Below, one piece after another: positions 8,976 to 51,088 of a stretch of DNA of 64,000 nucleotides. How positions within the stretch are numbered: the first letter of the stretch is position 1; the number at the start of each line of letters is the position of its first letter. The notes under the pieces were generated by a model that saw only the letters and a list, made by a program, of their open reading frames with translations, ran no database searches and had not been told where the DNA came from. Source of the DNA: a virus; the IMG/VR virus record IMGVR_UViG_3300037297_000178, positions 64,001 through 128,000 of that record. The stretch is one strand, 5' to 3'. Position numbers and translations under genes: made by a program.

Positions 8976-8994
8976 GTCTTCTGTCTTAAAAGCG

Positions 8995-9019
8995 AAAAGC
9001 CCCCAAGGTGGGGGCTTTT
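8995..9019 (-). terminator. Intrinsic terminator after the 9036-9248 gene
   Basis: Ten-base arms AAAAGCCCCC and GGGGGCTTTT around a 5-base loop, followed on the minus strand by CGCTTTT. It isolates the small gene from the UvrD-like gene. Confidence 0.85.
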
Positions 9020-9035
9020 CAGGAGTGACGGGAAG

Positions 9036-9248
9036 CTAGAAAACTGCGGGTGTTACTTCGAGGTGGTCGGCTTCCCGGGCTACGGTATAGCCGTCCTCTT
9101 TTAACAACGTTTCGAGTAATTCGAGGTCAGACGCTTTGACCAGAAGCGATTCACCTGACCTCGAGTCCCCACGCTCGAAAATCTCTACTTTTACTTCGTA
9201 CTGTCGCGCGAGCTTTTGTATTTGCTCGAGCGCTCGTGTTTGTGCCAT
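9036..9248 (-). CDS. Small hypothetical protein behind a structured leader
   Basis: 70 residues, alpha/beta, with an N-terminal helix (ALEQIQKLARQYEVK). It has its own promoter, an 89-base leader and a terminator, so it is an independent unit. The strong SD AAAGGAGG is directly preceded by the TTAGCGCTAA palindrome and can pair with an upstream anti-SD (see regulatory entry). No family recognised. Confidence 0.8.
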   Translation of the reverse strand: MAQTRALEQIQKLARQYEVKVEIFERGDSRSGESLLVKASDLELLETLLKEDGYTVAREADHLEVTPAVF

Positions 9249-9337
9249 ATCACGCCTCCTTTAGCGCTAAGGATTAGCGGACGGGGGGGGCCGGTGTTCG
9301 TCCCCCCCACGCCCAAGGAGGTGATGTGGGTCAACCC
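9249..9337 (-). promoter_or_regulatory. RNA leader with anti-SD: putative translational switch
   Basis: In the RNA, AUCACCUCCUU (complement of 9315-9325) matches the conserved 3' end of 16S rRNA and can pair with the gene's own SD region AAGGAG..GUGAU (complement of 9249-9261): five plus six base pairs around a 2-base bulge. Between the arms lie a hairpin of seven G-C pairs (9283-9290 with 9302-9308) and the TTAGCGCTAA palindrome. Closing the long helix would bury the SD; melting or a ligand would open it. Pairing is read from sequence; the regulation is inference. Confidence 0.6.
9261..9270. repeat. TTAGCGCTAA palindrome before an SD
   Basis: Forms the upstream border of the AAAGGAGG site of the 9036-9248 gene. 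Confidence 0.9.
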
Positions 9338-9343
9338 AAAAAG

Positions 9344-9372
9344 AGCATATCACAAAACAGACTCAATGTCAA
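9344..9372 (-). promoter_or_regulatory. Promoter of the structured-leader gene
   Basis: Minus strand TTGACA, 17 bases, TATGCT, overlapping the 3' end of the 9350-9886 gene. Confidence 0.7.
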
Positions 9373-9886
9373 GTCTGTAGTTAATTGCTATTGTTAAGTT
9401 TTCGAGCGCCCCTGACAGGGTGTCGCCATGCGCTTTTATCGACATGGGACCTTCCCCCATGTCGATTTGTCGATTGAGGATGACTGTGAATAGAGGGGAA
9501 CGCTCGACAACGTTCCCCTTCCGCCGGTAAATCACCTCGTACTCGAAGGTCGTCACCGGCCAGTCCTGGTCGTCGGTGACGATTTTCGAATCAGTCGCTC
9601 CCTTGAACTCGTGCTCGACCTCGAGTGGGCCATACAGTAGGTCGGCCCACTCAACCTCGTGAATGTCATAAAAGCGCGGGTCGGTCGGCGGAAGCGGCAT
9701 GTTGAACGCGAACGCACAGCCCTGAAGGTCGACCTTTATATACAATTTTTTCATCGTTGGGGTCTGCGTTCCCCCTTTGAGCACGAATCCAACGAGCGGA
9801 AGCGTTACTCGAATAGCATAACCGGTACTCGCCACGTCGAGGCTAAAGCCAAAACCGATGTACCAGTAAAAGAAAATGCTCAACAC
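9350..9886 (-). CDS. Hypothetical protein with hydrophobic N-terminus
   Basis: 178 residues. The first ~20 (IFFYWYIGFGFS) are hydrophobic and could be a membrane anchor or uncleaved signal; the rest is beta-rich (FEYEVIYRRKG). The start is a GTG that overlaps the TGA of the upstream gene, with no good SD of its own, so re-initiation is likely. An internal ATG 45 codons in (MKKLYIKVDLQG) is an alternative. No family recognised. Confidence 0.7.
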   Translation of the reverse strand: MLSIFFYWYIGFGFSLDVASTGYAIRVTLPLVGFVLKGGTQTPTMKKLYIKVDLQGCAFAFNMPLPPTDPRFYDIHEVEWADLLYGPLEVEHEFKGATDSKIVTDDQDWPVTTFEYEVIYRRKGNVVERSPLFTVILNRQIDMGEGPMSIKAHGDTLSGALENLTIAINYRLDIESVL

Positions 9887-13338: not shown

Positions 13339-13605
13339 GTGGACGAGATTCAACTGTTTGTGGAAAGTAACGAGGCGCTTTTTAGAGAAGCGCCTCTCGA
13401 GCTTGCTATCGAAACCAATAGCGAGAAAATAGCGCTTCTGTACGACGACGAGGACGGCTGGTGTGTCGACATTTACGAATGGAACTCGAAGTTCGAGGGG
13501 TACGCTTACCAGAGGGGGGACGCCCTGGGCGAAGACCTCGACAAGGCACTGAAAGCGTTCGAATATTACGTCGGAGACTTTAGCGCTAAGGCGGAAGATA
13601 CTTGA
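13339..13605 (+). CDS. Hypothetical acidic protein
   Basis: 88 residues, GTG start after GAGGTG. Compact alpha/beta with many acidic residues. The coding sequence holds a 9-bp hairpin (13372-13396) just after the start and one TTAGCGCTAA palindrome (13580) near the end, encoding FSAK. No family recognised. Confidence 0.7.
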   Translation: MDEIQLFVESNEALFREAPLELAIETNSEKIALLYDDEDGWCVDIYEWNSKFEGYAYQRGDALGEDLDKALKAFEYYVGDFSAKAEDT

Positions 13606-13630
13606 CAAGCCCCCCTGAGGGGGGTATAAT
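13602..13630 (+). promoter_or_regulatory. Promoter with inverted repeat in its spacer
   Basis: TTGACA, 17 bases, TATAAT. The spacer holds CCCCCC-TGA-GGGGGG (13610-13624), a possible operator. It starts over the stop of the preceding gene. Confidence 0.85.
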
Positions 13631-19728: not shown

Positions 19729-19874
19729 TGCTGACCCTCATTGTGGCCGTGACCGGCTACATCGTCGTGTACGCATTTTTTAACTTTGTCGGGCCTCTCC
19801 TTGACGCCGCCTGTAAGTGTGGTATAATATTTGTCAAGGAGGTTGTTCACAATGAGCGAAGAAAAAGACCTTGA
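19704..19874 (+). CDS. Possible membrane micropeptide
   Basis: 56 residues with a hydrophobic span about 6-32, in a different frame and overlapping the gene before and the gene after. SD weak (GAG). Its end contains the promoter of the next gene. Confidence 0.4.
   Translation: MWTDAVGVVLTLIVAVTGYIVVYAFFNFVGPLLDAACKCGIIFVKEVVHNERRKRP
19801..19828 (+). promoter_or_regulatory. Promoter within a small gene
   Basis: TTGACG, 16 bases, TATAAT, with extended -10 (TGGTATAAT), 23 bases before the 19852 start. Confidence 0.7.
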
Positions 19875-27225: not shown

Positions 27226-27235
27226 TTAGCGCTAA
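27226..27235. repeat. TTAGCGCTAA palindrome between -10 and SD
   Basis: Directly joined to AGGAGG of the lipoprotein gene; also covers the likely transcription start. Confidence 0.9.
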
Positions 27236-51059: not shown

Positions 51060-51088
51060 ATTATAGCACTGGCCGACCACCTTGTCAA
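51060..51088 (-). promoter_or_regulatory. Promoter with tandem-SD leader
   Basis: Minus strand TTGACA, 17 bases, TATAAT; leader has GAGTTAAGGA (51043-51052) before the real SD (51013-51025). Confidence 0.93.

Follow-up and report, generated by a model that had tools for sequence, protein, structure and literature searches.

Does the leader RNA of a 70-aa phage gene mask the SD of that same gene and, if it does, is the masking regulatory or accidental? The gene lies in a window of 64,000 nt (the whole stretch of DNA that was analyzed, G000:C1:64001-128000), which is part of a 161,983-base IMG/VR record (G000) from a large, tailed phage that encodes a DNA polymerase III-like enzyme, a sliding clamp, a DnaB-like helicase, a tape measure protein, and a terminase. 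The reading that we favor, with a probability of roughly 45%, is that the 70-aa gene carries a cis-acting, default-off 5′ leader that sequesters its SD, from which the SD would be released by some trigger.

The 70-aa gene and its predicted transcript

The features of the locus are collected in Table 1. With a hexamer model applied to the leader and gene, the 70-aa ORF scores 0.10 per codon, compared with values of -0.11 to -0.66 in the overlapping frames. Its start codon occupies positions 9248-9246, where GTGAT runs into ATATG. Structure modeling yielded a plausible alpha/beta protein (pLDDT 82.5), for which structure and family searches returned no significant fold or family match. Residues 32-67 match the C-terminal portion of a 161-aa protein from Agrobacterium rubi (L017:5001-5105) at 53% identity; the match is weak and partial. 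By eye, the Agrobacterium protein looks ACT-domain-like, which Pfam did not confirm.

Table 1. Features of the 70-aa gene and its leader, in window coordinates.
Feature	Position	Strand	Remarks
Terminator-like hairpin GAAAAGCCCCCACCTTGGGGGCTTTTC after the 70-aa gene	8994..9020	-	Read by eye; not returned by the consensus scanner
70-aa orphan ORF	9036..9248	-	Weakly positive coding score; predicted alpha-beta-beta-alpha-beta-beta fold
SD AAAGGAGG of the 70-aa gene	9255..9262	-	Pairs with the anti-SD arm
Palindrome TTAGCGCTAA, consensus CTTTAGCGCTAAGG	9261..9270	.	32 occurrences in the 162-kb record
Hairpin GCUAA-UCC-UUAGC, third arm of the junction	9266..9278	-	Built from one half of the palindrome and an additional half-site
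GC hairpin GGGCG-U-GGGGGGG...CCCCCCC-CGUCC, second arm of the three-way junction	9279..9314	-	Predicted fold
Anti-SD arm AUCACCUCCUU	9315..9325	-	When held unpaired, frees the SD (0.03 to 0.77 unpaired)
5′-terminal mini-hairpin GGG-UUGA-CCC of the predicted transcript	9328..9337	-	Fold series; competes with extension of the SD stem
Predicted sigma70-type promoter TTGACA-17-TATGCT, extended -10 TG	9344..9372	-	Near-consensus; overlaps the end of the upstream ORF 9350-9886

From the position of the predicted promoter, a transcription start near 9337 is plausible, and the locus resembles a single-gene transcription unit whose leader is 89 nt long. At 95 nt, the distance from the -10 element to the start codon places this leader with the longest among the promoter-linked genes; for most of the others it is 15 to 60 nt. 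We rejected a leader-peptide attenuator, given that the only candidate is a TTG frame 3 nt from the predicted start with no SD and a negative coding score. The GC hairpin was likewise ruled out as an intrinsic terminator, as no U-run follows it.

One promoter class of this phage shares a leader, AGTATCAGAGTTAAGGA...CGAGTAAAGGAGAC, with about 45 to 50 nt from the -10 element to the start; its members are at 51088, 53322, 58765, and 61017 (all on the minus strand) and at promoters outside the window. The promoters at 13602-13630 (plus strand) and G000:8628 have inverted repeats of G and C runs as their -35/-10 spacers (e.g., CCCCCCTGAGGGGGG). A stretch of about 950 nt that lies downstream of a strong promoter (G000:157330-158281; L007:10830-11781) contains no predicted gene and ends in a T-arm-like GATGGGTTCGAAACCCATTGACTCCACC. 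Neither Rfam, at the gathering threshold, nor ARAGORN, for tRNAs, returned a match to this region, which is possibly a structured RNA. A 14-nt match of GGGTCAACCCAAAA at G000:157811 was taken as chance (E 0.11).

Predicted pairing between the leader arm and the SD

A first-pass annotation had described a sequence like the 3′ end of 16S rRNA in this leader, placed to pair with the SD of its own gene. The sequence is indeed present, as ATCACCTCCTT at 9325-9315 of the minus strand, which is its sole exact copy in the 162-kb record, and the predicted fold contains exactly the pairing that had been proposed. CCUCCUU pairs with AAGGAGG and AUCA with UGAU, with a CG bulge between them. The resulting stem closes a compact three-way junction with few unpaired junction bases, whose remaining arms are the G7/C7 hairpin and a small hairpin.

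In the predicted fold of the leader RNA, the probability that the SD is unpaired is 0.03 at 37 °C, and opening the region from the SD to the AUG costs 11.3 kcal/mol. The leader is therefore able to hide the SD of its own gene, and this masking is due to the arm, since holding the arm open, or placing the 5′ end of the RNA just after it, lowers the opening cost to 5.4 kcal/mol and leaves the SD 77% open. In longer read-through RNAs the SD is still closed, with opening costs of 12.0 to 13.5 kcal/mol. Between 15 and 50 °C, 94 to 95% of the arm positions pair with the SD region. A temperature series gave SD unpaired probabilities of 0.03 at 37 °C, 0.05 at 55 °C, and 0.09 at 70 °C; the SD stays masked, so the predicted structure does not leave it open. 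These computations show that the arm pairs with the SD, that this pairing is stable, and that the masking depends on the arm. In computational terms they agree with a cis SD-sequestering leader, in which an upstream arm pairs with the SD of its own gene and reduces the accessibility of that SD.

In a length series of folds, the SD is already captured in RNAs too short to contain the AUG. A default-off leader would work as follows. RNA initiated from the promoter at 9372-9344 would fold co-transcriptionally, the arm would capture the newly emerged SD while the AUG has yet to be transcribed, and translation of the 70-aa protein would be lowered. Something would then open the leader, which may be processing at the 5′ end, an RNA-binding protein, or loss of the arm through an antisense or start-site change; without any opener, the leader would simply keep expression of the gene low. 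Three points are inferred: such a transcript is made, selection and not accident accounts for the effect, and an opener of the leader exists.

An SD is defined by complementarity to the 3′ end of 16S rRNA. Because the arm complements an extended SD, it necessarily matches that 3′ end. The likeness to 16S rRNA is therefore automatic and without extra meaning, and it implies no 30S sensor.

Chance, relatives, and the palindrome

The main rival of the default-off leader is coincidence, whereby a GC-rich spacer pairs with the SD by accident, or the arm is a relic of an inverted sequence resembling a ribosome-binding site (plus strand AAGGAGGTGATGTG), with no selected role. We consider this a serious but lesser possibility. 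An 11-pair complement turns up in 0.3% of the shuffled leaders and in 0.7% of random phage segments (p of about 0.003-0.007 for this gene), but about one such match is expected over the some 180 SD-bearing genes of the phage. The cost of opening the SD is matched by 9% of shuffled leaders and 17% of random phage segments; this unexceptional value favors coincidence and, like the weak coding signal of the gene, counts against a default-off leader. Simple duplex energy discriminates poorly, with 23% of random 63-mers attaining the arm-SD value. Moreover, several ribosome-binding sites of the phage read GAGGTGATGT, and therefore an inverted copy automatically yields an anti-SD.

By opening cost the gene ranks 10th among 180 SD-bearing phage genes, and by upstream complementarity 6th among 179, although these ranks are approximate because the gene calls rest on a simple hexamer model. 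Across the SD-bearing genes, there was no phage-wide enrichment of anti-SD arms (mean p 0.52). The arm-SD pairing is strong, yet not beyond chance across about 180 genes, and pairing alone is only modestly better than chance.

Arguing against coincidence are the unusual length of the leader for this phage and the compact three-way junction with its stable overall fold. The whole leader is more stable than shuffled versions (z -2.5; p about 0.001 in a separate control test), which is driven largely by the G7/C7 stem. In addition, a physical effect on translation would persist even if the pairing had arisen by accident. In the folding model the pairing is physically real, and selection may have shaped it.

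Close relatives were sought among viral contigs with the 70-aa protein, the neighboring helicase, the upstream ORF, the arm-SD DNA pattern, and the palindrome-SD cassette, and none was found. Searches with the DNA polymerase and terminase recovered phages that are distantly related, together with one near-identical fragment of 44 kb (G001), which does not cover the leader. This IMG/VR contig of 44,242 bases (L018) has a 100% identical terminase and identical palindrome spacing and is, judging by these sequences, the same phage from another sample. A search of genome contigs yielded one weak partial match, in Agrobacterium. None of these searches turned up a relative with the leader.

The pairing had also been described as spanning the GC hairpin and a recurrent palindrome. 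The hairpin and half of the palindrome do lie inside the fold, but the palindrome itself is probably a phage-wide DNA-binding site rather than an RNA part designed for this leader. The record holds 32 exact cores, 25 of them inside predicted genes (examples of the cores are at 2376, 7195, 9261, 13580, 27226, and 63959), and seven of the 32 stand directly before an SD-like GGAG. Corndog has 17-bp dyad repeats and Cluster K phages have start-associated sequences, both of which are phage-wide (PMC4351075, PMC3203893). The palindrome resembles these as a phage-wide repeated site with some copies directly before an SD, but its sequence differs and most of its copies lie inside genes.

A 24-bp block, ATCCTTAGCGCTAAAGGAGGCGTG, is common to the 70-aa gene and a gene at 27226, which is a natural comparison without the arm. 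The default-off leader is supported because this second gene, which has the same SD cassette and a short predicted leader, has an SD opening cost of only 5.6 kcal/mol. A third cassette gene (start 7183) shows that the cassette does not always go with a low cost, since its SD costs 9.2 to open, for other reasons.

Possible opening of the leader and known parallels

One specific form of the default-off leader is a read-through or processing switch, wherein the arm silences a long or primary RNA and a shorter RNA, produced by RNase cleavage or from an internal start, is translated, as for T4 gene e or type I toxin mRNAs. The freeing of the SD by a 5′ end just after the arm is consistent with such a switch, as is a T4-e-like layout at another gene of this phage. 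However, no sigma70-type promoter was found between the arm and the SD, either by the scanner or by reading positions 9249-9325, and with the predicted promoter on the upstream side of the arm, primary and read-through RNAs would both carry the arm. We therefore judge this form improbable.

T4 genes e, soc, 49, and I-TevI have inhibitory leader structures in which the SD is paired to an upstream arm, and the late promoter is placed such that late RNAs lack the arm (PMC3014915). By analogy, gene e is the best-known parallel for the leader described here, in that the SD of a phage mRNA is paired to an upstream arm and the transcript is, here by prediction, poorly translated. The internal promoter of T4 is absent from the 70-aa gene, whose sole predicted promoter is upstream of the arm. 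Type I toxin mRNAs (tisB and others) start inactive and are then processed (PMC11228461, PMC7708055). These primary transcripts and, by prediction, the leader are alike inactive through structure around the start. At the 70-aa gene, in contrast, no antisense RNA gene or processing site was identified, and the product is not a hydrophobic peptide.

The other gene with a T4-e-like layout is at G000:16671-16721 (L002:16671-16721), where a promoter spacer, CCCGGCCTCC, is complementary to the SD of the same gene, GGAGGCCGG, with the -10 element in between. A read-through RNA would mask this SD and a promoter-made RNA would not, an arrangement that appears closer to T4 gene e than does the leader of the 70-aa gene. 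The ORF that starts there has, by eye, an HDIDIATSA motif and looks like a CCA-adding-type nucleotidyltransferase. At 19801-19852 (plus strand), a second promoter region, GGGCCTCTCCTTGACG, is strongly complementary to the SD of its own gene, AAGGAGGTT. A systematic test for promoter-region anti-SD arms gave two striking cases and no overall trend.

The compact three-way junction adjoining the SD might suit a ligand riboswitch or, through the 16S-like sequence, a sensor of free 30S subunits, both of which the first-pass annotation had suggested. However, even a lax threshold gave no Rfam family for the leader, the fold series contained no alternative arm competing for the anti-SD, and identity to 16S rRNA, which necessarily follows when a full SD is complemented, confers no affinity for 30S; we give such sensors very little credence. 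Even less probable is a dual DNA and RNA element, wherein a putative palindrome-binding protein of the phage would also recognize the leader, in which half of the palindrome makes a hairpin next to the masked SD. If true, genome-wide DNA binding would be coupled to the translation of one gene.

RNA thermometers such as ROSE and FourU mask the SD by base pairing. The leader resembles them in this masking, but it is far too stable and does not melt in the physiological range, with the SD remaining paired to about 70 °C; the proposal that warming opens the SD is thus not supported, and its probability is close to nil. The arm is also complementary to several other SDs of the phage, but no other AAGGAGGTGAT exists in the record and the arm spends about 95% of the time paired in cis, making antisense action in trans similarly negligible.

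If our reading is true, the leader belongs to a known kind, the cis SD-sequestering leaders, and would add a promoter-proximal, default-off case to phage translational control. The irrelevance of the 16S likeness is useful when similar strings turn up elsewhere.
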